64,000 nt of DNA from Ornithodoros turicata (Eukaryota > Arthropoda > Arachnida > Ixodida > Argasidae), in the NCBI RefSeq assembly GCF_037126465.1, contig NW_026999318.1, positions 3,382,447 to 3,446,446 of the forward strand, in the 5' to 3' direction. Position 1 is the stretch's first letter, and each line of letters starts with the position of its first letter. The notes beneath the pieces were generated by a model. That model did not search any database. It saw only the letters and a program-made list of their open reading frames with translations, and was not told the DNA's origin. Positions 11,218 to 58,991 of the stretch are shown here, piece after piece. The translations under genes were made by a program, and so were the position numbers.

Positions 11218-11469
11218 TACACTCTTAAGAATGAACTTCACCGCATAGCACGCTCCTAGCCAACCATTATCTCGAATGATATTGTTATCTGCCCGGATTT
11301 GTTGAAAACGGGAGGCGTACGCCTTTTTGTGACACTTATGCTGTTCACAATTGTCACAAAAAAGGCGTACGTCTCCCGTTTTCAACAAATCAGGGCAGAT
11401 AACGATATCATTCGAGATAATGGTTGGCTAGAAGCGTGCTATGTGGTGAAGTTCATTTTTAAGAGTGTA
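11218..11469. mobile_element. 252 bp fold-back MITE
   Basis: Starts TACACTCTTAAGAATGAAC and ends with the complement, TTCATTTTTAAGAGTGTA. Almost the whole element is an inverted repeat. The arms also hold AACCATTATCTCGAATGATAT and GGCGTACGCC-type blocks with a short centre near 11335-11355. The boundary TA on both sides fits TA-targeting (Tc1/mariner-type) insertion. ORFs on both strands are simply mirror images of the palindrome. Confidence 0.75.
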
Positions 11470-12392: not shown

Positions 12393-13330
12393 TTACAATG
12401 AGGATCGAAGTCCTGTGGCGTCCAAAAAGGCGAAGAGAGTCTTGAGGGCAGAGCGTTGGTGAGCTGCATGCGGCCAGGGGCCAAGCAATTTTGTGAGGGA
12501 GAGGGGACGGGAGTCTCGCTCGTTGAGTGAGGCGGAGAGTACGGAGCGGGAAGGGTGGTAGTGTGGGCAATGGAGAAGAATGTGCTCGAGATCTTCAACA
12601 GCACCGCAGTGACTGCAGTGGGCAGAGCTAACTTGTCTCAAGCGGTAGCGCCACTGTGCTGTGAAGGCCACGTCGAGGCGCATTCGATGAACTAATGCGG
12701 CGGCTTGACGAGAGATATGTGCTGGCATGCGGAAAGCGAGCGCTGGGTCAACTCTGCTCAGCATGGCGGGGGGTAGTATGTCAGTGGCCCGTTGGCGGGT
12801 AGCCAGAGGAGTCACAAGGCTTTGAAGTATGGACCGCCGATCGCCTCTCCGCAGTGCAATCCGCGTCCGTGTCCGAGACGAGAGAGCTGCTTCGGCGGCG
12901 CTGTCCGCCAGTTCATTGCCTTCGACGCCGCAATGGGCGGGAACCCATTGGAGAGCGAGCCTATGTCCTGCTTCGTAATCAAGTTTGTAAGCGCTTAACA
13001 CATCCATAACCAACGGTGCGGAGGAGCCTCGTACGCCAGAATTTTCAATTGCTTGCAGCGCAGATGCTAAGTCAGTAAAGACCTCCCAATTCCGGGGGGC
13101 GGGGGAGGAACGATGTGCTGCAAAAAGAAAAGTATGGCGTAGAGTTCCGCAGCTGTGGATGATGTACAATGCCAAAGGCGACGACCTTGAACTACGCCTT
13201 CGTCAGGCATGACAAATGCTGACGCGGACTTTCCATTTCGAGATGCGCCATCGGTGTAAGCGGCGGTAGAGGTGGAAAACTTCGCGTCTACGAGGGCATA
13301 AAAATGGGCTCGAAGGACTTGAGGGGGAAC
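12393..13330 (-). pseudogene. LINE ORF2 RNase H and C-terminal zinc-knuckle part
   Basis: RNase H would remove the RNA strand during target-primed reverse transcription. Upstream of the 260-codon open stretch (12393-13175), the frame carries AAYTDGASRNGK, the first catalytic Asp of RNase H. The open stretch then shows STAAELYAI-type context for the Glu, FTDLASALQAI for the second Asp and LQWVPAHCGVEGNELAD, the His/Asp end of the fold. Near the C-terminus a C-x2-C-x7-H-x4-C knuckle follows (CSHCGAVEDLEHILLHC). The family is I-type LINE ORF2. The frame differs from that of the RT upstream, so the ORF is broken. Confidence 0.8.
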
Positions 13331-13345
13331 CTGAGCTCTGCGGAC

Positions 13346-14577
13346 CTAGAGGCCAGGAAGACGTGCGAAGGTGGTTGGCACAGGCATAGACCAGGGGGCG
13401 TTCGGCGGTGTGACAGTCCTAGGTGTGAAACCGGTGAGAGCGTGGCGTGTCCTCTGCGCCACGCGATGGAAATCACTTTGAGGACGGTGTAGAATTTTCC
13501 TAAAGAGTGGGTGACGGGGAACGTGAGCACGCAAACGTTGGAAGTGTCGAGCCGTTTCCCGCTCACAGAGGATCTCCACCTGGAGTCCTCCAGCTTCAGC
13601 TAGGACTTGCCGTGTTTCAGCCATTCTTGGAACGCCAAGGCAGCGACGAAGGCTTAGGGCGAACAGGGTCCGAAGGGTATTTAACGATGTTGCAGAATCC
13701 CCATGCAAGACTGGAAGGCTGTAAAGCACAGTCGCCCTCACCAAAGCCGCGGGAACGGCTAAGAGGGAGGGTTGATCACAGCCCCAGCCGAAGCCCGAAA
13801 GATGTTGAATGGCAGGAAGCCGTCGCTGCACTTTGGTTTCAAGGTGCTTGATGTGGCGAGCCCAGCGCAGGTGGGAGTCCAGGACCACACCAAGGAAGCG
13901 ATGGGAACGCACAGGCTCGAGCTTCCATGGACCACCCCAGAGAGGGAAATTACTCATAGCCTTGTGGGTGAAAGGGAGCTCGACGCACTTTTCGGGGGAA
14001 AGGTCCATTCCAAGTCGCGTAAGGTACAGATGAACGTTGTTTAAGGCTTCTTGTAAACGGCGCTGAAGGGCTGGTCGTGACTTACCTACTGTCCAAAGGG
14101 TAACGTCATCGGCATACACGGAGAATGGTACCTTGCGTGGAACTATCGATTTTAGCCCTGCCATTACCACATTAAAAAGTATAGGACTGATAATGCTTCC
14201 TTCCATTGATGAACAGGGTGCTTGGGGCGTTGGCCGTGGGATGTGCGGACAGCGAAAGTTTGGTCCGTAAGGAAATCGTGAAGCCAGCTGAAAAGTAGAC
14301 CAGAGACTCTAAAAGACCGCAACCCGTGGAGCACACAGATGTGCGAGACGGTATCATAGGCGCGCTTAATGTCCAGAAAGACCGATACAACGATCCGCCG
14401 ATGAGCACGAGCATGTTGGACTGTAGAGACCAGATCGAGAACTGGATCCACAGAGCTTCGGTGGCGGCGAAATCCAGCCATTTCCTGAGGGAACGCACCT
14501 TGTTTTTCGAGCCAACAGTCGCGGCGATGCAAAACCATTCTCTCCATCAGTTTTCCGATACAGCTTGTTAGGCTCAC
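13346..14577 (-). pseudogene. LINE ORF2 reverse transcriptase (broken)
   Basis: The reverse transcriptase would copy the LINE RNA at a nicked genomic target. The amino-terminal part (14164-14577) reads through motifs such as FLDIKRAYDTVSH, the RT domain A with catalytic Asp. Around 14205 the frame shifts to a second open stretch (13346-14206) with SPILFNVVMAG (domain B) and FSVYADDVTLW, the YADD catalytic box of domain C. It then continues with FLGVVLDSHLRW (domain E) and the thumb region. The endonuclease that normally precedes RT is missing because of 5' truncation. Strand, motif order and the following RNase H agree; the frameshift means no active product. Confidence 0.85.
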
Positions 14578-18089: not shown

Positions 18090-18186
18090 GTTTTACTGAA
18101 GGCGCTTCCTGATTATCGGCGTCATATACCAAAGAGCGAGACGGTCCACCCTCCACGTATCATAGAACAACACACTGCAACAAATT

Positions 18187-18900
18187 GTGCTACAACCCTG
18201 TGGATCTTCAAGATCCACAGATCGCCAACAATTGCTCCAAAGATCTCCTCGAGCCAATGGAAATTCTGCAGTAAATCTCACTGTCACATTCAATGGCAGC
18301 GTTCCTAACATTAGCCGGATACTCAACCGCCACTACACAATTCTTTCACAATCTGATCGGATGAAGGAAATATTCTCACAGCCACCGCGCGTAAGTTATC
18401 GCCGGGCGTGGAACATCCAAGACAGACTAGTAAATGCCAAAATTAACAAACTTCCAGAAAATAACATTGGTTGCCACCCTTGTAATGCAACTAGATGCCA
18501 AATTTGTAAATCAATGCAATCCGCTAACTCTGCAGATAGTACCAATTCTAATTATCGGGTCAACATTAATGGCGACTTTAACTGTAATTCTTCCAATGCT
18601 GTCTATCTTCTTCAATGTAATGAATGCAACGCCCAATATATCAGACAGACAGCTACTTCATTTAGAACGCGATTCAATAACCACAAATCTGACGTCGCGA
18701 AGAAACCTAATCTGCCAGTGTCGCGCCATTTCAGTAAACCAAGACACTCAATCACCAATATATCTATTTTCATCCTGCAGTCAGGCTTTCTTTCCCAGCG
18801 GCTCAGGGAACAGCGCGAGTCTTATCTCATTCATAAATTCCAGTGTCAGATAAACGAAGATCCAGGAATCCTTTCTACTATTCGCAACCTGCATTCCTAA
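18187..18900 (+). pseudogene. Penelope-like GIY-YIG endonuclease region
   Basis: The 237-codon frame holds the two signatures that follow RT in PLE proteins. The first is a CCHH-type linker, GCHPCNATRCQICKSM. The second is a GIY-YIG nuclease domain with AVYLLQCNECNAQYIRQT, then FRTRFNNHKSD and PVSRHF, and finally REQRESYLIHKFQ. In active enzymes the YIG box has Gly; here it is Arg (QYIRQT), so cleavage activity is doubtful. The RT itself is missing or out of frame upstream (18093-18187). The nuclease would nick the target for reverse transcription. Confidence 0.8.
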
Positions 18901-19337: not shown

Positions 19338-19717
19338 CAAAAAAAGACGCGGAAACAGATTTTAGGGAAGTTACAAACACTGGTTTATTAGATAGGGAGA
19401 CGTTAAAAAGTACTTAAATAGGTTTGGTACATGACGTCATAATCGGTACGGGCACGCCACAGGCGTTTGTCAATGAGTCAGATTCGGGTCAGATCTGACT
19501 CATTGACAAACGCCTGTGGCGTGCCCGTACCGATTATGACGTCATGTACCAAACCTATTTAAGTAATGTGTAACCAGCTATGCATCTTTTGTCCTGACGA
19601 AGACAGTGCCACTGTCGAAACGTCGACTCCTTGCCCATTTTACTTTTTAACGTCTCCCTATGTAATAAGCTAGTGTTTATAACTTCCCTAAAATATGTTT
19701 CCGCGTCTTTTTTTATA
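19338..19717. mobile_element. PLE-type inverted-repeat tail, ribozyme on one arm only
   Basis: Two arms mirror each other around about 19485. The left arm begins AAAAAAAGACGCGGAAACA at 19338 and the right arm ends TGTTTCCGCGTCTTTTTTT near 19716. The arms share TTAACGTCTCCCTA and GTACCAAACCTATTTAAGTA blocks. The right arm has about 80 bp extra (after 19566 to about 19642) containing the hammerhead motif. In the left arm this interval is cleanly missing, and the join carries a 2 bp overlap. The structure lies between two (AT)n microsatellites (about 19264-19287 and 19718-19754). Confidence 0.7.
19581..19637 (+). ncRNA. PLE-type minimal hammerhead ribozyme motif
   Basis: CTGACGA (19594-19600) is an intact core box. 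After one extra A comes stem II, GACAGT paired with ACTGTC (6 bp, 3 nt loop), then GAAA (19617-19620) and CGTC. The predicted cut follows C19624. A15.1 and U16.1 frame a palindromic ACGU stem III, so activity may need a dimer. Stem I can form from GTC before the core and GAC after the cut, plus an outer GCA/TGC pairing. The extra A after the core is tolerated in at least one natural viroid hammerhead (established knowledge). Confidence 0.65.
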
Positions 19718-19719
19718 TA

Positions 19720-19755
<36 letters not shown>

Positions 19756-22521: not shown

Positions 22522-24157
22522 CTACAGGGTATTGAAAAGTACCTTGGACGAGGAACGGTTATTGGTACCTGTTATAATCCTAACCGCACGTTTCTGTAAC
22601 GTTATTAGTACCCTTAAATATGTATGGTATATACTACCCCATGTTTCCAAACAGTAGGTGAGATGACTCTGTATAAAAGAGAAGTACAACAGTTTCATTA
22701 CGTGCAGTGGAAATATGTGCCTACACTTGATGAGTAAATGACAGCCATATGCCAATTTTCTTCTAAGTGACTCTATATGTGGCTTCCAACATAGTGTGTT
22801 ATCAAGTATTATGCCCAGGTACCGAACCTGATTGGACTGTGTTATAGGACTATCACACAACTTCATTTGAAAGCTGCTGGTGTCTATCGGACTTTTAAAA
22901 GAGTGAAATATAAGAAATGTGGTTTTATTTGTATTTAAGGTTAGCTGATTACGAAGCAACCATCTTTCTAGTGCACGCAAATCTCCTTGCATGGTGTCTG
23001 AGATATCCTTAAGTGTTGGACTCGATATAAATAAGCATGTGTCGTCTGCATAAAGGTAAGAAGTAAAGACTTTTAAGCTGTTTGTGAGATCATTTACATA
23101 TCGGGCGAACAGTATCGGCCCCAGCACAGAGCCCTGCGGTAACCGACATTTATGTCCAAATACGCGGATGATGTCCCATCGATAGTTACCAGCTGTTTAC
23201 GTCCTGACAGGTAGCTACGGAAGAAGCTATTTATGTGTCCCCCAAAATCCGTACGAGTTAATTTATCCAACAGTATAGCGTGATTGACAGTATCAAAGGC
23301 TTTTCTTAAATCTAGAAACAGCCCCAGCACAAGTTTTCTGTCATTGAGAGCAGTGTTGATAAACTGGCTTACTGCTAAAGTGGCTGTTGCAGTGGATCTG
23401 CGCGCTCTAAAGCCATGTTGACTGTCGCTAATCACGCCATACTTTTCAAGAAAGGACGTCACTCTCTTACGTATTATTTTTTCGAATATTATATTTATTG
23501 TGTTAAGAACAGAGATAGGGCGGTAATTTTTCAATTTTCAAGAACATCTTTATCAGCACCTTTAAATATCGAAACAACCTTGGCAACTTTCAAAGTATCG
23601 GGATAAACCCCTACTGAGACTGAGTGGTTGTAAAGATAACATACCGGATGGCTAAGTATGTCCACCAGCCTCTTAATTATCGAGACACTAATATTACCAA
23701 CACCCATTGCTGTATTGGACTTCATGCTGTAGATTATGCCGATTACCTCCTGTACATCAATAGGTTCAAAAACAATGCTGTTGCTAGGAGTTTGTTCTAC
23801 TTGCTCTGCGAGCTCTCCATCGCCATTTCCAATAAAAGCATGGGCAAGACTTTGCCCTATCGAGACAAAGTAATGATTGAAATTCTCACACAATTCTTGA
23901 TGTGTAACCCCAGCCCTGTCTCTGTCTGGGAGGACCTGAACTTTTGGTGTAGCAATTACAGAGTTGATAATTTTCCACATCTGCTTACTATCCCCATGAG
24001 AGCGAGATATAATGTCATGGTAATACTTTGATTTCACTTGCTGCCACTCCTTAGTTACTATATTTCTGTAGTATCTGTACCTGTTTAAATAATATGCGTT
24101 ATCCTTGTGTTGTCTAAATTTGCGATACCATTTTTGCTTTATCTTTAGAATGTTCAA
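22522..24157 (-). pseudogene. LINE ORF2 reverse transcriptase (frameshifted)
   Basis: The RT is readable across three frames. In 23531-24157: the pre-RT linker and start of RT. In 23094-23534: KNYRPISVLNTI (domain 1), QHGFRARRST, then LFLDLRKAFDTVNHAIL, domain A with the catalytic Asp. In 22522-23127: GPILFARYVNDL (domain B), TSYLYADDTCLF (domain C, YADD) and VRYLGIILDNTLCW (domain E), then the CR1/L2 thumb. Frame changes lie near 23525 and 23120. Catalytic residues are intact, so the damage is in the frame only. Confidence 0.85.
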
Positions 24158-24630: not shown

Positions 24631-27045
24631 CCCAGTAAACCATATATGTCTCAGAAACGTCCACACGATATCCCACACGGGATTTTGGGATATCCCAGGG
24701 ACTAGGCTGAATAGCCCGTTGACGTCTCTGGGACAGACAGATGACCCGTATTTCTTCCACATTTGCTGATCCAGGGAAGGTTCCAGGAATGTCTCTCAGG
24801 GATACTTGGACATATAGAGGACATATACAGGACGTATTATTATTATTGTATTTTGTAGCTTTTTTTGCAATTTTTACTTCTTCTACGGAAAATACTAGTC
24901 TGCAACAGAGAACATCGTATCAACGAACTCTTGTTTATTGAACACAAACCAAGTACAGTGATGTTACATGCACTGTAAGAAACGCTCTTTCTAATAGTAC
25001 AAAATATGATATTACAACATAAATAGGCTAATTATTAACAATATAGGGTGACACGGATAAGACGCATAGTAAGACAATAATGGTCATAATAATAATAATA
25101 ATCACGTGATTGCTACGCCACTTCGCAACCGTCATCCCTGAAACATACCCAATAATATAGTTAAATCCATCTATTGGGATAGCAGCTCAAACAGTGTCAT
25201 AAATAGGCGTAAAGAACAGACACTCTGCAAAAAGTGGGAACAAATGCAAGAAAGTGACTTGCCGCAGTTTCTCTCACAGCATAGATGGTTACATGTGGAA
25301 GCAGCCTAATCACTGGCAGACCCAAGCGACGTCTTCCGGTTTATGCCTGGCTCTTCAGTGTTGTAGAGACACCAGTAACTTTACACATGTGTGAGGCTAT
25401 CCATGGTTGTGTGTGAATACTGTAAAACCGTCATGTTTTATTAATCTAGAGTCACATCGCGTCCATGTGACATCTAAGAAACATAAGCGGTCATGCAAAA
25501 AACAAGGAACTTTGAAAAGCAGTGCAGTCAAACGTGAAAACATAACTGCTATCCTTTATATGAAAGACAACTGTAGCTGAGCCAAGCTTATCTACTAGCA
25601 GGCTGCACATAGTTAATAGAATTTGCTTCACCATTGCTTTCATCATCCCCAATCAAATCCTGAATCAAAGAGATGTGAAGCATAGGACTTGCACTTTGTA
25701 CCTGTACACACACAATCTCACACAGTTCCCCGTTCGCATGAGTTCGTCAGTGATACGCACCAGACTCCGCAGGTAAAGCAAACTACAGCTGTTTACTCAG
25801 ATACAAAGCTGTCATTGCTCCACACCTGTGACTGTTGAAAAAACAACAACGCACAAGTCTTAAGTGAGGCAAAAGGAAGAACGAACTCACCTTAATTGCA
25901 AAGCCGGAGAACAAAGGAACGCTAGCTCTCGCACACCACGGCAATCGTTGTTACGCACAACGTAGTTGTTCGACGTACTGGCCAGTACTGCCTCGATGCT
26001 CCCGAGATTCCAGTACAAAATACGCATGATGCTGAGGTTCCAAAGACCCTTTCGCGTAACAAGTCATATCCTACCGAACCGCTACGACGACGCGCCTCGC
26101 CTGTTTGAAACGGCGGTTGGAGAATGGCGATGGCGATGAAGCAGACGTCGTTACGCTTCGGCTCGCGCTTGTTAGGAACTTCGTTCTTGTTATATCCCTC
26201 AACATACGTGACCGATCATTATAATTCCCGTGGAAAATGTTTTCTCTCTCTCTCTCTCTTGTTTATTGACTATGGTGCGATACGCGATGAGTCGTTACAA
26301 ATATGATTAGAAAAGGTATGGATATGAGGGTATAAAATCAATATTATTATTATGAGGAAAGAGTGAGAGAAGTATCACATCAAACAGGCCTTCCTCTACA
26401 TGCGAACGGCACAGAACAAATTGGGTGCGCAGTATGTTGAGTAAAGACGCAACGACTTTTCCGTTCGTGGTAAAAGTTGACAATATGTTGAAGGTACAAT
26501 GTAGAACCCATGCAAATATTTGCTGCGAAAATCTTTAGTTGAGTGGCTCTTGGAAAACCAACGTTGTTCTTTATGTTCACAATCCACCATTGACCAGGTA
26601 CAGTTGAAATAGCGTTGATTCAGCACTATCTATCTACATACTACATTGCTCAACATTAGTCAACATTACACAACGTGCATTCTACGTTACACCAACAGTC
26701 GGTGTTGACTAGTAGCTTATTCTGTGAGAGCTTTTTTATTTGTTCTGTTGTACATGTCTGAAGTGAGAAGTGATTTATTTAAGGATAGTTTACAACCTTT
26801 TTATGCAAAAAATGAAATTGCCACGTCTGAGAATGCTGGAAATGGCTCTTATCTACACAATAAATCCTTGTAAGGTAAAGAAATGTCATTGTTGTGATAT
26901 TCGTAGCATATCCACAGAATATTCACTGGGGGATATTTGCGACGTCTCATAGTGGATATACAGAGGACGTTGTGAGGATACGAGAGACATCTGTGACGTG
27001 TGAGACCAATTTGGGAGGTCTGTGGGATATTGATGGTTTGCTGGG
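24631..27045. mobile_element. DNA transposon nested in the LINE (2415 bp, 2 bp duplication)
   Basis: The left end reads CCCAGTAAACCATATATGTC and the right end, read on the minus strand, CCCAGCAAACCATCAATATC. These are imperfect 20 bp TIRs. Both subterminal zones carry many short direct repeats of the GGACATAT/GGACGT type. Removing 24631-27045 plus one 2 bp copy restores the LINE endonuclease reading frame exactly, which gives a 2 bp duplication (GT on the plus strand). No transposase is recognisable in the 2 kb interior, which has short ORFs only. The 2 bp duplication with subterminal repeats resembles CACTA-type elements, but the terminus is not the usual CACTA, so the class stays open. Confidence 0.75.
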
Positions 27046-27476
27046 GTGTTTTCAAACGCTTCAAGAAATATCGATATGTTACACCTCGGAGCTCGATATA
27101 CCACTCCCACTATAACACTACCTGGCAATTCTAAAAACAGAGCCTCACAGAACCCTGGTATCTCAAGAACGATATCAGCTCGGAGATTACATTTCACATT
27201 TTTATGCACAAATAGGCCGACGCCGCCTCCTCTATGTCGGGACTGTAACAATCGGGGTTGAGAATAGAACACATAGTCATGAAGGTGATAACACTCATCT
27301 CGCATTAGCCATGTTTCCGTTAGAGCTATAACGTCAAATTTAAAAGTTAGCGTGGACAATAGAACAACTAGTTGATCGAAATTCTTTCGAACGCTCCTTA
27401 TGTTCAAATTTAATAGCTTAAACATGGTACCATTGGACAGGTTGTTCAATTCAGTAATCGATACAATATCATCCAT
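27046..27476 (-). pseudogene. LINE ORF2 endonuclease, N-terminal half
   Basis: The start codon at 27476 opens ORF2. LLNLNIRSVRKNFDQL is the N-terminal APE-endonuclease box with catalytic Asn. DVIALTETWL holds the catalytic Glu, and SRHRGGGVGLFV and VIVGVVYRAP follow as usual. The reading frame is broken after EAFENT by the DNA-transposon insertion. Its continuation is at 24630. Confidence 0.85.
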
Positions 27477-27519
27477 ATAAACAGTTTAGGAGTAGGCAAC
27501 AAAATAACACATAACGAAA

Positions 27520-28325
27520 TTACACACAATGTGACAGCTGTAATTCCCGTAGGTTTTTTTCAGACTGAATCTGGACAGCTTTAGAATTCTCAGTTCGACG
27601 GACGAATATCTTTCCGTCATTGACCCATGCGTACCTCCACTTATTTTCTTTTTTTTCGTGGATAGTTTTTCCCAAAAGAAGCTTAAGCTCTTGACACAGG
27701 TGCTCATTAACATAGACTGGCTCGTTGTGCTCATACCCAAAGTCCGAAGTGGTCAGTCGCCTACGCCTTGACGCGGACACTAACGAATCTCTAGCTTCTC
27801 GAGAGAAAAACCGAGCAATAATATTGAGCTTTGACGGGTCCTGCGTAGGCACCCTATGAGCAACCTCAATTGCGTCTGGTGATAAATCCACACCCAGTTT
27901 TGTGGCTATTTCGCAAACTAGGTCGGTGCTGTTCTCGTTAGGCCTCAACGGAAAGTTTCTTATTTCCACATTGTTCCTGCGTGAGTACTGCTTAAGACTA
28001 ACCACCTCGGCCCGGAGCACAGACAGTTCACGTTCCAGGAAACAGTTTTGCTTGTAACTTGTGCAACTTCCATTTTTAACGCAGCCGTCTCTTCTTGAAT
28101 GGACTTAAACGCAGTTTTCATTTCTTCAAATGAATCGCTCATGTATTGCATGGAAGTGGACAATCCTAAGCGTTCTTTCTCAAGAAGAGACTTGACATTG
28201 GTTATTTCTGTTGTCACATGCTTAGTCAGTTGACTGAACTGTGCAGTCAGATCGGCTATGGCCTTATGAATTTCCTTTACCTGTGCTACGTTGGCCATAT
28301 TTATATGCAGGAAGTCAGCAATCAA
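27520..28325 (-). pseudogene. LINE ORF1 (coiled coil plus RRM-like nucleic-acid-binding region)
   Basis: ORF1 proteins coat LINE RNA. The first part (27960-28325) is a heptad-rich coiled coil with few helix breakers. After a frameshift near 28020 the second part (27520-28020) contains LKQYSRRNNVEIRNFP, a short RRM-like core with KLNIIARFFSREARDSLV, then a basic, aromatic C-terminal domain. This organisation is the L1-ORF1-like (Transposase_22-like) type found in several LINE clades. It ends 43 bp before ORF2. Confidence 0.75.
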
Positions 28326-28685: not shown

Positions 28686-30380
28686 GTAATATGGGTTCGT
28701 ACTCCAACGACGAACGAGTGGATATGATCCTGGCCTTCGCGGAATCTCAGAGGAACGCATCTTTGGCTGCAAGAATTTACGCCCAGAGCTTTCCCCAGAG
28801 GCGCTACCCGGATCATAACACAATATTATCCGTCTACAGAAATTTTTCAATCTACGGCACCTTCGTCAAGCCCCATACGAGAGAGCCATCTGCGCGGAAC
28901 GAGCAGGTTACGTCCAGTGTTCTCGAACATATCCGCGATCATCCACATGCAAGTGTCCGTTCCACAGCAGCTGCCCTTGAAGTGAACCGCCCTTGAACAT
29001 GGCGCATATTGAAAAAGGCCGGTAGACATCCTTACCATCCGGACATACATCAAAGACTCATTCAGGCTGACTACGGCAGAAGAGCGAAATTCACGAACTG
29101 GTCACTTGCCATGCTAGAGGACGACGAGGACTTTCTATCAAAAGTCATATGGACCGATGAAGCGCGATTTGGGCGCGACGCAAACGTCAACACCCAGAAT
29201 CAGCACTACTGGGCTTCTACTAACCCGTACTGGCTACTGCCTGGTAAGCACCAGCGGCAGTGGTCATGTAATGTCTGGTGTGGCATTCATGGTGACCGCG
29301 TCATTGGCCCATACTTTTTTTGACACCTAACTCCACATAGGTACGTCGGTGAAGTGCTCGGGAACGTTGTCCGTGACTACCCCGACGAAATGCCTTTGTC
29401 TGACCGACGCGGCGTCTGCTATCAGCACGACGGCGCCCCAGCTCATGCATCGCGGACGTCCGGCCTATTGTTAGACTTCGTTTTCGGAGACAAGTGGATA
29501 GGCGCAAGAGGTCCTGTTCCCTGGCCAGCCCGATCCCCTGACCTGACTCCTTTGGACTTTTTTTTCGTGGGGATACACAACGGACAGAGTGTACGACACC
29601 GATCCAGCGACGCCGGAAAACTTGAGGCGAAGGATCGAGGAATGCTGCGCACAGATAACCGTTGAGCAGCTACGAGGAACCGTGGAACTTGAAAAGCGGC
29701 TCCGTCTGTGTCTTGCCGCGGAAGGAAGGCATTTTGAACACGTCCTGTGATTTCTGTGCCGCAATAAATCAAATTTGTGTTTTCCTAATTTTGTAGTTTG
29801 AACTTAGGAGGTTGCCTTCATTATAAGTCAGGAACGAATCTTCATTGCGGTTGCAAGCACAAGAATACATCGTGGCGGTGCATAAGGAGCACATCGCTCT
29901 CTGCACTGTCACACCACCGTCGATACATCGTCCAACGGCCGCCTATGGACATTCAGAGAATACGGCATTACAGAAGCGAAACCAAGTGGGGAAATGGCAT
30001 GATACGCATAATTTCTCCTGCTTCGAGATTGAAAGTGAATAGAAGGTCAATTGGTCAGAAGGCTTGTTATTTCATCGTACGAAAGCTCAGGACAACAACA
30101 GAATCCGCGCTTCACTCCTTTGTTTTGCTTGTTTGTTTCGTGCGTACATTCTTTGTTTTGGCGATAAAAGCACGTTATCTCGACTACACGACGGCCCCAT
30201 AGAGCGGACTGTACATCAATCAGATAAACAGGAAGGAAGGTTGGCGAAGCGGGTTCTGCGGCTGTTACTTTTCTATCAGCACTCCCTGCTGCCAAACATG
30301 CGGAAGAACACGTAATTCCGAGGCGGATAGCAATGTGAAAGAACTTGTGTTTGCGGTCCTATGCGAGGAAAATATGTAAA
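28684..30380 (+). mobile_element. IS630/Tc1/mariner-type transposon, copy 2
   Basis: A plus-strand copy with a long transposase pseudogene and a 3' region of about 630 bp that matches copy 1 (20060-20680, minus) nearly base for base. The left side begins immediately after the LINE 5' UTR repeat and only 6 bp before the start codon, so the 5' TIR is missing. The right side stops at about 30380, where the hammerhead-bearing tandem repeat starts. Copy 1 carries about 300 bp more at this end. Confidence 0.75.
28691..29750 (+). pseudogene. DDE transposase with N-terminal HTH (DUF4817-like)
   Basis: The transposase would excise and reinsert the element. The N-terminus (residues about 1-60, SNDERVDMILAFAESQRNAS) is the helix-turn-helix module annotated in insects and ticks as DUF4817. 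The DDE core shows VIWTDEARFGR (first Asp), YQHDGAPAHAS (second Asp) and PARSPDLTPLDFF (third acidic position, about 36 residues further). Two in-frame TGA stops (28994 and 29321) and a frameshift within the T run near 29557 break it. The C-terminal AAEGRHFEHVL and stop at 29750 come from the shifted frame. Relatives are often labelled Tc3-like in databases. Confidence 0.85.
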
Positions 30381-30385
30381 AGCTA

Positions 30386-30447
30386 CCCAGGGCTGACGAG
30401 CCGCAAACACGGCGAAACACGTGTCCTCTGGTGCTGTCGCATCGTTC
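30386..30447 (+). ncRNA. Type I hammerhead ribozyme, unit A (5' strand of stem I truncated)
   Basis: CTGACGA (30393-30399), stem II GCCG with loop CAAACA and CGGC, then GAAA (30414-30417) and a palindromic ACACGTGT stem III. The predicted cut follows C30425. The outer stem I strand CGCATCGTTC is present (30438-30447), but its upstream partner is missing because the array begins here. Self-cleavage of this unit is therefore doubtful. Confidence 0.65.
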
Positions 30448-30654
30448 CATGAGTATCTGTTTCTCTACGTGCAGCCATAGAAGCCATCTTAATTTGTAAG
30501 TTTGAATTTCAAACACGTTTAGCATCATTTACTTATTTTTGATGTTTTTTTTTCCTCTCTATAATTCACTGTCTCACACTGTGGCATTGAGGAGTGCTCA
30601 GTCAACCTCCCAGGTGTATATCGCTCGCTGAGTGACCCCTGGTTTGCCAATCCC

Positions 30655-30732
30655 GAACGATGCGCAGCTACCCAGGGCTGACGAGCCGCAAACACGGTGA
30701 AACACGTGTCCTCTGGTGCTGCCGCATCGTTC
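30655..30732 (+). ncRNA. Type I hammerhead ribozyme, unit B
   Basis: All core boxes are present: CTGACGA (30678-30684), stem II GCCG...CGGT with a G-U closing pair, GAAA, then ACACGTGTC with predicted cleavage after C30710. Stem I is closed by a perfect 10 bp outer helix, GAACGATGCG paired with CGCATCGTTC. It also has an inner helix next to the core (CCAGGG with CTCTGG, including a G-U pair). The internal loop between them lies where tertiary contacts form in natural type I hammerheads. The C to T change at the base of stem II is the only weak point. Confidence 0.8.
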
Positions 30733-30941
30733 CATGAGTATCTGTTTCTCTGCGTGCAGCCATAGAAGCCATGTTAATCTGTAAGTTTGAATTACAAACA
30801 CGTCTAGTATCATTTATTTGTTCCTTTAATGGCTTTTTTCCGGCATTATAATTCACTGGCTTGCACTGTGGCATTGAGGAGTGCTCAGTCACCCTCCCAG
30901 GTGTATATCGCTCGCTGAGTGACCCCTGGTTTGCCAATTCG

Positions 30942-31019
30942 GAACGATGCGCAGCTACCCAGGGCTGACGAGCCGCAAACACGGCGAAACACGTGTCCTC
31001 TGGTGCTGCCGCATCGTTC
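30942..31019 (+). ncRNA. Type I hammerhead ribozyme, unit C (best conserved)
   Basis: Core CTGACGA (30965-30971), fully paired stem II GCCG/CGGC, GAAA, stem III ACACGTGT and predicted cut after C30997. The 10 bp outer stem I (GAACGATGCG/CGCATCGTTC) is intact. The distance from cut B to cut C is 287 nt, so a transcript through both sites would release a monomer of that length. Confidence 0.82.
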
Positions 31020-31080
31020 CATGAGTATCTATATATATATATGTCAAAGTGGTTAATATATCAGACTGCTACGAAGTTGA

Positions 31081-31184
31081 ATAAAAGTAAAATAATAAGA
31101 CGTGGACGACAGAAAGTGGAAGAGATTACAGGACAGTTAACTTTCCTGTAATCTGTCGTCCACGTCTTATTATTTTACTTTTAT
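31081..31184. repeat. Inverted repeat next to AT microsatellites
   Basis: ATAAAAGTAAAATAATAAGA and CGTGGACGACAG are mirrored by CTGTCGTCCACG and TCTTATTATTTTACTTTTAT. The left arm has 12 extra bases (AAAGTGGAAGAG) before the shared ATTACAGG block. Both sides are bordered by (AT)n (about 31031-31042 and 31185-31197). The layout resembles the PLE-type tail at 19338-19717 on a smaller scale. Confidence 0.6.
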
Positions 31185-34760: not shown

Positions 34761-37270
34761 CGTTTCATCCTGTGATCTGACACATAGTGAAGGCAGCTAC
34801 AAAAAAGGCAATCTTTGTGAACGGACTACGTTTTACCCTCTTCTTTCTGTTCTTCAGCAACCACGAACGCACATGACGAGCCAGATGTCGTTGTAGATGC
34901 ATCGATGAGAAGCTGAATTCTACCCACCGACCTCTCCATTATGCCTATACTAAGCTGCCAGAGGATTCGAAGCAAGTTTCTTCTGTTTGCAAAGAAAACC
35001 CCACTAATTACTAGCACAAAGCAGGTTCTCTGTTTATTGCAGTAATGTAAAAGTAATGCAAATGCCATGAGTCCGATTGGGAGAATGTACAACGAAATGA
35101 AAACAGTATATGCAAAGAGTGTGGGCTGATTCAACGGAACTGTTTTTGGAGGGTTATGGACAATTGCTCGCCGTCGGAGCGCTGAAGCTGAACAATAAAA
35201 TGATCGAAGTGTGAGAACATGTAGAGCGTGTTGGTTGAACGACATGGTAACAAAAGCGCTAGAACGTCCGTCCGTGTTACTTCGCGTCTCTTACCATGTT
35301 GATAATAGATCACTCAAGTAACAACACCCTCACCATGAGAAGCACACATTTTTCTGCCACCACTGAAAATGACTAAGTTTTTATGAGCAAATTTGCTGAA
35401 ATAATATTTTTATCGCAATAAGATACCTGAAATGTATAGGACATATCTCACGGCTTTGTACTACGCACATGTTGTCGCGGCGCCATAAAACTCCCAATCA
35501 TCATCATTTGTACTACGCACCAATACATGTATGTAATATAAGGACACACGCGTATCATAACATTCATGAAGTATAACTTTTACTGTAAGTCTGGTTTCTT
35601 GCTGGCTTATGCTGGCGGATCCAATCATGTTTAGCAACCTATATGACATACTCATACTGTTCACAGGAAGCTTAGTTTTCCCACCTCACTGTTAACGACT
35701 TCAATGAGCGGTACCTAGTATTAAACTGTTTTCTCCGTTTATAACTCCGGCGACTCTCTTTAGCAGTACTGACCCTACAATTTGTGATAACCATCCACGG
35801 GTCATTCGCCCTCCAAATGAAACAGAGGTTTCGCAACTCAGTCATTCATTCTTAATATTTAAATGTAATTACCGTATAGATGTTACCGAGACAGTTCATC
35901 TACACCTGGACAATATGAAACGTGTAGTGGACCTTTGTATTTGCTTTATATTCTCGGACAGCGCGCTGTTTTATGAATCCCAGACTGCTGATACATATAT
36001 TCCAAGGAAGGTAAAATGATTCATGTGTCGTTAAAGGAGGACTCGGGGACAATCCGTAACTATTATAATGGCGCTGTATATAACTTCGATACATTCTTCC
36101 GAAATGAGAAATAAAGTTGGTTTGGCAGTCGGGGAATCGATAGTTGCCAAAATTGCTGGGATGCTCAAAACGAAACCGAAACTTCTGAGGGTTCCCTCTT
36201 CAACCTTCTGTACCATGCGTGACGTCACCGATAGTCTCGTGTGGGGTAAAAAATATTCGCAGGCGGTAAAAGCAAAACCTAAAGAAATCCATAAAAGGGG
36301 AATATCTGTGAGGTGAAGTCCAGTGGTGCTGGACTGCTTTTTCGTGGAGAAGCGCGCAATCACTCAAAGGGAAATGTTCCTTTTCTAATTATCTGAACCG
36401 CTTGGGGATGATAAATTGTATTCACTGAAATATCATACGGTACAGAATTGATGTCGCACTGCTGCCTGAACACGCTTTTGGTGCGTTCCTCTTTCGCATC
36501 CGATCTTCATTGAGTATGTTTAGAACACATCTGTTTAATATCGATATCAATTTTAGGTGGTTTCAAATAACGACGCAGACAGAATAATGAGACAGAAAGT
36601 CCCGGTTTGACTTGAACACCTTTCTGAAATTGACTTGAGGCTGAGAGCACTGCAGCCTACGTGGGAGATGCCAACATCTGGACGTTCTGCGCAGACTGTG
36701 GAGATACTGGAAAACGTTTGAATGGCTCAACTGGCTTTTGTACTACTCTCCACGTGTTCTGCCAGGGATCTTGCCAAATAAATATCTGAACAACTGGGTA
36801 CAATTTGTAACAATCATACACGTTCTTCTTGGACAGCCTGTGGCATTGGACAAACTGGACTGGACAAATTGGACTGGTCAAACAAGAGATAATTTAATTT
36901 CTATCTGAGTATCAAAAATTATACGGGAAGAGATGTATGACGTATAATGCACACCTTTTGCTACACTTGGTGGACACTGTTCGGGAGTGGTGTCCACTCT
37001 GGAGATATTCGTCATTCCCATTTGAAGGCACGGCACTTTCATGAAGCTTCTCAATGGCACACGGTATATGCAAAGCCAAATAGTTGAGAAAGAAAATATT
37101 TGCTCCTTCGTAAATTTTCAAAGCTTTCTCAGGTGTGCTGAATATGTTGAATCTTTCATGCAAGAAACCATAAAAGGTTACAGCCTCTGAAAAAATATAT
37201 CTATGCAGGATTCGGTTGTGATCCCAATCACACAAATAAAAAAACTATATAAGAAGAAACAAAGTAAGCA
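34761..37270. other. No recognisable gene
   Basis: ORFs of 60-139 codons occur on both strands, for example 34826-35245 minus and 36031-36363 minus. They lack conserved motifs, signal peptides with plausible continuations, or collinear neighbours. I treat them as chance ORFs. Confidence 0.45.
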
Positions 37271-37639
37271 TCTGGGAAAGTAACGCGGAGTTGGTGTCTT
37301 ACAGATTGTGTATCATCGTGTATGATGTGAAAAACGGCAGACAAGTGATAATACAATAAATAGACTCATAGTGTAAAGGACTGTAATGGACCGCCGTACA
37401 CGTTGATGCCGTGCGGCTGTAACGTTGCAAATTTCGAAATGAAAAAGGATTCTCGATTTTTGCGATTTTCATTTCGAAATTTGCAACGTTACAGCCGCAC
37501 GGCATCAACGTGTACGGGGTCCATTACAGTCCTTTACACTATGAGTCTATTTATTGTATTATCACTTGTCTGCCGTTTTTCACATCATACACGATGATAC
37601 ACAATCTGTAAGACACCAACTCCGCGTTACTTTCCCAGA
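37271..37639. mobile_element. 369 bp near-perfect palindrome
   Basis: TCTGGGAAAGTAACGCGGAG opens the element and its exact complement closes it. Arms of about 170 bp agree at nearly every position. The centre near 37445-37470 is a short unpaired loop containing GATTCTCGATTTTTGCGA. Near-identity of the arms suggests recent formation or gene conversion. No duplication of target DNA is obvious. ORFs on both strands here are mirror images. Confidence 0.75.
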
Positions 37640-39519: not shown

Positions 39520-39735
39520 GGCAGACGCATTTCTAACTAAAACAATACTCCCTGAGAAGCGATGAAAGAAAGAAGTCACTGCAAAGGTTAGCCAGCTGTA
39601 GGACTCGCACCCACACCTTCTGGTTTGCCGCTCCAGTGCTCTGCCGATTGAGCTAAGCGAACACACCTCTCCAACGACTTCCAATGGTGCGTCATTTGAG
39701 GGGACAAACCACATCCACTCACTCACCCATTCCAC
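39520..39735 (-). mobile_element. tRNA-derived SINE, minus strand
   Basis: Read on the minus strand, 39663 to 39590 gives a tRNA-like head. It has TTAGCTCAATCGGCAGAGC (A-box region) and GGTGCGAGTCCTAC (B-box region) with tRNA-like spacing. It is a different head from the SINE at 58717. Boundaries are approximate and a target duplication was not found. A genuine tRNA gene is unlikely because acceptor arms do not pair. Confidence 0.55.
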
Positions 39736-54078: not shown

Positions 54079-54944
54079 ATATTGTAAAAGTGGTTAATTT
54101 CGCGATCTTAATGTTTCACGAATTCGTGTGGGAGCGCGTTTCGGGAATATTTCGCGGGACCTTAATTTCGCGAAATCGTGTGCGAGCGGGCGGAAAACGC
54201 GGGATCGCGGAGGTCGGAGGTTCATGACACTGCCGACAGTAAACAACGAAAATTACTCGTCCTCTACATTGCCGGCTGTCTTATAGAGGCTTACCGAGAG
54301 CTCCAATCCCGTAACGTTGACATGCGTGCTGGTTTCGTGAAAGCCGGTATCTGCAATGCCAACAGATACATTACGCGAGCACACTGCTGATGTTGAAGTG
54401 GTGTTTCAGTTATAGACATATTTGACAAGAATAAAGTGTGAGAATAAAGGTCGTCATAACGTGCCCATCGGTCGTCGTGCCCATAACTTTTCATCCCTGC
54501 TGCCTATATTTCGCGGGACCTTAATTTCGCGAAATCGTGTGCGAGCGGGCGGAAAACGCAAAACGCGGGATCGCGGAGGTCGGAGGTTCATGACACTGCC
54601 GACAGTAAACAACGAAAATTACTCGTCCTCTACATTGCCGGCTGTCTTATAGAGGCTTACCGTCAGCTCCAATCACGTAACGTTGACATGCGTGCTGGTT
54701 TTGTGAAAGCCGGTATCTGCAATGCCAACTGATACATTATGCGAGCACACTGCTGATGTTGAAGTGGTGTTTCAGGTATAGACATATTTGACAAGAATAA
54801 AGTGTGAGAATAAAGGTCGTCATAACGTGCCCATCGGTCGTCGTGCCCATAACTTTTCATCCCTGCTGCCTATATTTCGCGGAAACTTAATTTCGCGAAA
54901 TTCGCGAAAAATAAGTCTTCGCGAACATTTCTACTTTTACAGTG
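54079..54944. mobile_element. Non-autonomous DNA transposon with internal 360 bp tandem duplication
   Basis: Termini are ATTGTAAAAGTGGTTAATTT at the left and, on the minus strand, CACTGTAAAAGTAGAAATGT at the right. Subterminal TTTCGCG/CGCGAAA words are abundant. Inside, a unit of 359-366 bp starting TTCGCGGGACCTTAATTTCG is present twice (from 54151 and 54510), and its first 25 bp recur at 54876. The opposite arm of the surrounding inverted repeat keeps the empty site near 56323, so the insertion point can be read directly. Confidence 0.75.
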
Positions 54945-58716: not shown

Positions 58717-58991
58717 ACCGGCCTCGGTGGCTCAGTTGGTAGCGTGTTCGCCTTCTGATCCCGAGATCGCGGGTTCGAACCCGGCCGAGGACGCCAGCAA
58801 CTTGGTGGCAGGGTACAAGTTGCTTAGACACGCCGTCTTCCGCGAGGGACGTTAAATACGGGGTGCCGTGCGATGAGCTTTCATCGCACGTTAAAGAACC
58901 CTCAGGTGGGCAAAAGCAATCCACAGACCGACCGCTGTGGCGTCGCTCATGATCTCAGTTGTCTCGCGACGTAAACACCCAATTATTAATA
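58717..58991 (+). mobile_element. Complete tRNA-derived SINE with 13 bp target duplication
   Basis: The 275 bp element has a well-kept tRNA-like head. TGGCTCAGTTGG is the A box and GGTTCGAACCC (58772-58782) the B box of an internal RNA polymerase III promoter. A body follows (GTGGCAGGGTACAAG, CATCGCACGTTAAAG, GTGGCGTCGCTCATGATCTC) and an AATTATTAAT tail. GCATAGCAAAATT flanks it perfectly on both sides (58704-58716 and 58992-59004). The perfect duplication indicates a young insertion. A second, truncated copy is at 8810. It lies in intron 1, in the same sense as the gene. Confidence 0.85.

Follow-up and report, generated by a model that had tools for sequence, protein, structure and literature searches.

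The tandem array and other features of the window

The window, the whole stretch of 64,000 nucleotides of Ornithodoros turicata DNA analysed here, carries a tandem array at 30381-31030 on the plus strand. The array consists of 2.26 head-to-tail units (A, B, and C) of 285-287 bp. Tandem Repeats Finder gives it a period of 287, 2.3 copies, and 92% matches, in agreement with an earlier note on this DNA, which had described a repeat of about 286 bp in 2.26 units at 30381..31030. When the unit is compared with the window by BLAST at E 1, no further copy appears beyond the array ends. The array contains three hammerhead cores and two complete hammerhead bodies. The distances between the predicted cuts define two monomers, one of 285 nt (30426-30710, plus strand) and one of 287 nt (30711-30997, plus strand), which are the limits of the unit length of 285-287 put forward in the earlier note.

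The array has a GC content of 49.1%, compared with 45.3% for the window; the 285-nt and 287-nt monomers have 46.3% and 49.1%, respectively. The longest sense frame without a stop is 41 codons. For the longest antisense frame, of 120 amino acids, none of the 13 candidates of a protein search is a relative at E 10. The array contains no frame of at least 150 codons, and the nearest such frames listed are at 27520-28104 and 34826-35290. Neither Rfam nor ARAGORN finds a tRNA match within the array, and T runs of 9 and 6 on its sense strand would probably terminate Pol III. A tRNA-like unit, or one transcribed by Pol III, is therefore unsupported.

Elsewhere in the window, a second tandem array at 54147-54901 (366 bp, 2.1 copies, 95% matches in Tandem Repeats Finder) contains TTTCGCGAAAT motifs and has no Rfam match. 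A tRNA at 39590-39662 on the minus strand is called by Rfam only, and a tRNA-Gln (ctg) at 58720-58796 on the plus strand by ARAGORN only. Remains of reverse transcriptase (RT) elements lie at 12393-14308 and 22522-23196 (minus strand); RVT_1 is matched twice there and RNase H once, below threshold. The RT fragment at 13349-14308 has seven relatives, including three from Ornithodoros turicata (37-42% identity), one from Dermacentor andersoni (26%), and another at 31%. The remaining two are partial proteins labelled Bradyrhizobium sp. 33ap4, at 69% (the top match) and 35%, which probably represent animal DNA in a bacterial assembly. At 26886-28104 on the minus strand, a sub-threshold Exo_endo_phos frame (E 0.003) lies beside a Baculo_FP_2nd frame; the two are perhaps parts of one more LINE.

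Type I hammerheads and their folding

Each unit contains one type I hammerhead on the plus strand, and all three score above the gathering score of the Rfam model RF00163, which is 34 bits (E values refer to the whole window, both strands). The hammerhead of unit A (30387-30431) scores 40.6 bits (E 7e-7) and is also matched by a descriptor. The hammerhead of unit B scores 35.8 bits at 30672-30716 (E 2.8e-5), barely over the gathering score, and that of unit C scores 40.6 bits at 30959-31003 (E 7e-7). The matches cover all 45 positions of the model. With the outer stem I included, the motifs of units B and C span 30655-30731 and 30942-31018 on the plus strand, respectively, with support from RF00163 and a constrained fold, and in unit B from RF02275 as well. 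Rfam reports no hammerhead in the window outside 30381-31030, and neither Rfam nor a strict descriptor reports one on the minus strand of the window. A viroid-like replicon, with ribozymes on both strands, is rejected, since the hammerheads are on the plus strand only.

None of the three motifs has lost any of the conserved core bases. Every unit has CTGACGA and GAAA, as well as the ACACGTGT that precedes the cut-site C. The predicted cuts follow the C of each ACACGTGTC, that is, C30425 in unit A, C30710 in unit B, and C30997 in unit C. The earlier note had given every unit the CTGACGA, the GAAA, the palindrome, and a GCCG/CGGC stem II. The first three hold throughout, but the stem is GCCG/CGGC only in units A and C; in unit B it is GCCG/CGGT, with a G-U pair at the core end. 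The core-end pair of stem II in active hammerheads is usually G-C. Therefore, the predicted cut at C30710, which both monomers need, may be weak.

In units B and C, the outer stem I is formed by GAACGATGCG and CGCATCGTTC over 10 bp. Inward of it lie a bulged C, four pairs (CAGC/GCTG), an internal loop, and six inner pairs, which bears out the 10-bp outer stem I and the internal loop noted earlier for these two units. The two units have the complete type I architecture, including a stem II loop of CAAACA and helix III. The intramolecular helix III has two pairs, A-U and C-G, with ACGU as its closing loop. Loop II of the array hammerheads resembles loop II of the Rfam consensus, and from the sequence it may contact the internal loop of stem I. 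Unit A lacks the outer 5' strand of stem I, because the array begins at 30381, inside stem I.

A loose CTGANGA...GAAA pattern has nine matches in the window, where 3.72 would be expected; three of the nine lie in the array, and the pattern on its own proves nothing. A strict type I descriptor, composed once the sites were known, specifies the core bases, a 4-bp stem II with a loop of 4-12, GAAA, a helix III of at least 2 bp, and a 5-bp stem I. It matches the three array sites alone on both strands of the window, and has no match in 200 dinucleotide-preserving shuffles. Thus, looser patterns do arise randomly, but nothing speaks for chance as the origin of the full motif. The descriptor counts, together with the E value of 7e-7 for RF00163, reject a chance origin at the sequence level and leave it a negligible probability.

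The minimum free energy (MFE) structure of the isolated motif is not a hammerhead in any of the three units. The constrained hammerhead is less stable than the MFE structure by 5.1, 7.4, and 5.1 kcal/mol for units A, B, and C, respectively. The Rfam type I consensus behaves likewise (-7.8 for the hammerhead and -12.8 for the MFE structure, a gap of 5.0 kcal/mol), indicating that part of the bias comes from an energy model that leaves tertiary contacts out of account. A pair of motifs could also be joined through the 8-bp palindrome ACACGUGU. The summed energies, which cover units B and C but not unit A and carry no loop or initiation corrections, are -73.5 for B+C, -75.1 for C+C, and -71.9 for B+B, each time against -73.0 for a pair of inactive folds. 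The paired hammerheads are slightly favoured in two of the three combinations. Since the ACACGUGU-joined motifs roughly equal two inactive folds, the pairing would about cancel the penalty of the single hammerhead, and cutting as a dimer is possible in this model but not required. Amphibian hammerheads are described as acting best as dimers, and invertebrate retrozyme hammerheads as mostly self-cutting well as monomers, with a helix III likened to the two-pair helix of HHR_Amex2 (PMC7229834, PMC7761336).

The circular 285-nt monomer has an MFE of -73.6 kcal/mol (z -2.38, 100 shuffles) with 57.5% of its bases paired, and the circular 287-nt monomer has an MFE of -85.4 kcal/mol (z -2.13, 100 shuffles) with 54.4% paired.

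Divergence between units and the insertion site

An alignment of units A and B over 287 columns shows 26 differences, two of which come from a 2-base gap. The hammerhead accounts for 2 differences in 75 columns and the rest of the unit for 24 in 212 (Fisher p 0.03). The differences cluster, 21 of the 26 falling inside 112 columns; the corresponding p value of 0.00045, from 20,000 random placements, flatters the clustering, as the 112-column length was picked post hoc. A second conserved stretch lies shortly upstream of the hammerhead, at 30577-30651 on the plus strand, with one A/B difference in 75 columns. No folding signal is found in 30578-30665 (z 0.18). This non-ribozyme stretch is as well conserved as the hammerhead, and therefore the conservation is not ribozyme-specific.

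The divergence speaks against a single RNA circle as a recent template, which would give near-identical units and fits poorly with 26 clustered differences in 287 columns. Its source is either an old insertion, or a multimeric template of unlike units, or an exchange that mixes units. The pattern of conservation is more likely older than the insertion, because selection on one inserted array is unlikely to guard these particular parts. A more specific proposal combines two elements: the 75-nt block would be a recognition site for the RT of a partner Penelope-like element or LINE (or a promoter), and arrays would be copied from multimeric, sequence-mixed transcripts. We regard the combination as unlikely.

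Heterogeneous units would also fit exchange between arrays of ordinary satellite DNA, spread by unequal crossing-over with the ribozymes as passengers. A hammerhead-bearing repeat of about 286 bp in head-to-tail order is in keeping with such an origin, and the newt, schistosome, and cricket satellites were long viewed in this way. However, the array has 2.26 units only, and the unit sequence is undetected past either end. In addition, the repeats of newts and salamanders have since been reinterpreted as retrozymes from which circular RNA is made (PMC7229834). An origin as ordinary satellite DNA is thus quite improbable.

The array is flanked by short repeats. The left copy, ATATGTAAAAG at 30372-30382 on the plus strand, overlaps the array start by its last 2 bases, and the right copy, ATATGTCAAAG at 31039-31049 on the plus strand, follows a short TA run. 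The two match at 10 of 11 positions. Among 20,000 pairs drawn at random from the window, 1.4% match equally well, and the share rises to 3% for the 202 pairs with matched AT content. As a possible target-site duplication, the pair is weak and merely suggestive; in animal retrozymes such duplications, where they occur, exceed 4 bp. The right end of the array passes into the TA repeat, which is compatible with, though not specific to, an AT-rich target. In purified form, a Penelope-like protein cleaves AT-rich DNA and initiates reverse transcription internally (PMC11167929).

About 50 bp past the array lies a foldback at 31081-31184, an inverted repeat of 78% over 116 aligned columns. It has a below-threshold MIR4376 match, and part of it resembles 19680-19737. 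Below-threshold microRNA-like matches at 11294-11391 on the plus strand (MIR535, E 0.00094) and at 37401-37510 on both strands (mir-363, E 0.29 and 0.45) are probably other foldbacks.

The same observations bear on the state of the array. It could be a decayed copy, that is, an old and silent retrozyme insertion in which the ribozymes merely survive. The 26 of 287 columns that differ between units A and B, the missing outer stem I strand of unit A, the G-U pair in stem II of unit B, and the flanking repeats that match at only 10 of 11 positions are all in line with decay. In contrast, all three motifs keep their conserved core bases. We give decay a probability a little short of even. A decayed copy overlaps with the explanation that we prefer, a genomic copy of a retrozyme, and differs from it in activity, not in identity.

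Retrozyme reading and comparison with known systems

An open frame of 244 codons at 18166-18900 on the plus strand is Penelope-like. The protein search finds four relatives, with identities of 63%, 59%, 45% (Ixodes persulcatus), and 37%, and Pfam gives a weak GIY-YIG match (E 0.024), below the cut-off. Its relatives and those of the RT fragment both point to ticks. The presence of a Penelope-like fragment in the same window counts for the retrozyme reading. It is also what would be seen if the array were the pseudo-LTRs, or tandem ends, of an autonomous Penelope-like element that has lost its coding part, since such elements are described as bearing type I hammerheads in tandem pseudo-LTRs (PMC7761336, PMC11167929). 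However, the Penelope-type hammerheads in the description of PMC7761336 are minimal, without helix III or loop contacts. The array motifs fill all 45 positions of RF00163 and are not minimal: they have a 2-bp helix III with a tetraloop, a loop II of CAAACA, and an internal loop in stem I, and two of the three have the long outer stem I with its internal loop. The units follow one another directly, head to tail, with no RT-GIY-YIG frame between the repeats. The array has no frame of at least 150 codons, and some 11.5 kb separate it from the Penelope-like fragment. Descent from such pseudo-LTRs is therefore very improbable.

We conclude that the array very probably represents an animal retrozyme of the non-LTR kind, inserted in the genome as a non-coding and non-autonomous element. 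Every unit has a type I hammerhead with a canonical core; the tandem units fall within the roughly 150-450 bp of animal retrozymes, have a GC content below 50%, and are non-coding. The reading is favoured because the unit length, tandem layout, GC content, and non-coding units fit the published description (PMC7229834). The lower divergence of the hammerhead than of the remainder between units A and B, the restriction of the strict descriptor matches to the array, and the TA run at its end also count in its favour. The ribozyme anatomy and the retrozyme candidate proposed in the earlier note are in this respect upheld, by three RF00163 matches over the gathering score in tandem units. Several observations count against a retrozyme. 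The monomers are 54-58% paired, whereas metazoan retrozyme RNAs are reported in PMC4918200 to be more than 70% paired. In addition, the MFE structure is not the hammerhead in any of the three motifs, which also holds for the Rfam consensus. The G-U pair of unit B, the clustering of the A/B differences beside a non-ribozyme stretch as conserved as the hammerhead, the weakness of the target-site duplication, and the lack of a second copy in the window, the viral and prokaryote contigs, and the phage records point the same way.

By analogy with its relatives, the array would be transcribed, cleaved, circularised, and moved. Read-through transcription would yield a multimeric RNA. The hammerheads would cut this multimer after C30425, C30710, and C30997, either singly or paired through the palindromic ACACGUGU. 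A foreign RT, from a Penelope-like element or a LINE, would then copy circular or multimeric RNA into AT-rich DNA, giving a short tandem array. Which RT moves animal retrozymes is still open, as discussed in PMC7229834 and PMC7761336. The circular-RNA experiments in animals that these two papers present concern coral, mussel, and axolotl.

The earlier note stated that its author was aware of no account of this family. The kind of element is published in animals, and a putative one from a tick has been figured. For the sequence itself, a text search finds no paper, although such a search cannot settle the point. We therefore regard the array as a further example of an established kind of element, possibly with a sequence family of its own.

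Among Rfam motifs, HH9 (RF02275) resembles unit B end to end, including the outer stem I, the UACC strand of the internal loop, and the CAAA of loop II, but the match scores 35.7 bits at 30660-30733, under the gathering score of 52. In amniotes, HH9 occurs as one conserved motif and not as a repeat. Isolated human hammerhead motifs are mentioned in PMC7229834. Exact DNA patterns find no relatives in IMG/VR viral contigs (two patterns) or in prokaryote contigs (one pattern), and a distant search of phage records finds no relatives of the unit; viral, prokaryote, and phage collections are improbable places for tick repeats and may omit genomes near that of the window, so these misses say little.

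With the Penelope-like elements described in PMC11167929 and PMC7761336, the array shares the tandem layout, the type I hammerhead, and a possible AT-rich target. Unlike them, it has no coding region but does have helix III, together with a long stem I interrupted by an internal loop. A genome that holds a probable retrozyme this close to Penelope-like remnants is a reasonable place for comparing insertion ends.

The animal non-LTR retrozymes described in PMC7229834 resemble the array in their type I hammerhead, in a tandem arrangement whose units measure a few hundred base pairs, in a GC content below 50%, and in the lack of coding capacity. Such retrozymes are further characterised by the absence of LTRs, of a primer binding site, and of a polypurine tract, by numerous copies dispersed over the genome, and by linear as well as circular monomer RNA. 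The array differs from the animal retrozymes of PMC4918200 in the lower pairing of its monomers, and from those of PMC7229834 in that its units are 9% divergent inside one array. A putative retrozyme RNA of the tick Argas monolakensis, a prediction drawn in Fig. 7c of PMC4918200, is likewise a type I hammerhead retrozyme in a tick, and is likened here by its description only. On the retrozyme reading, the array adds a clear retrozyme with three intact ribozyme cores in a tick and is otherwise a routine member of the animal retrozymes.
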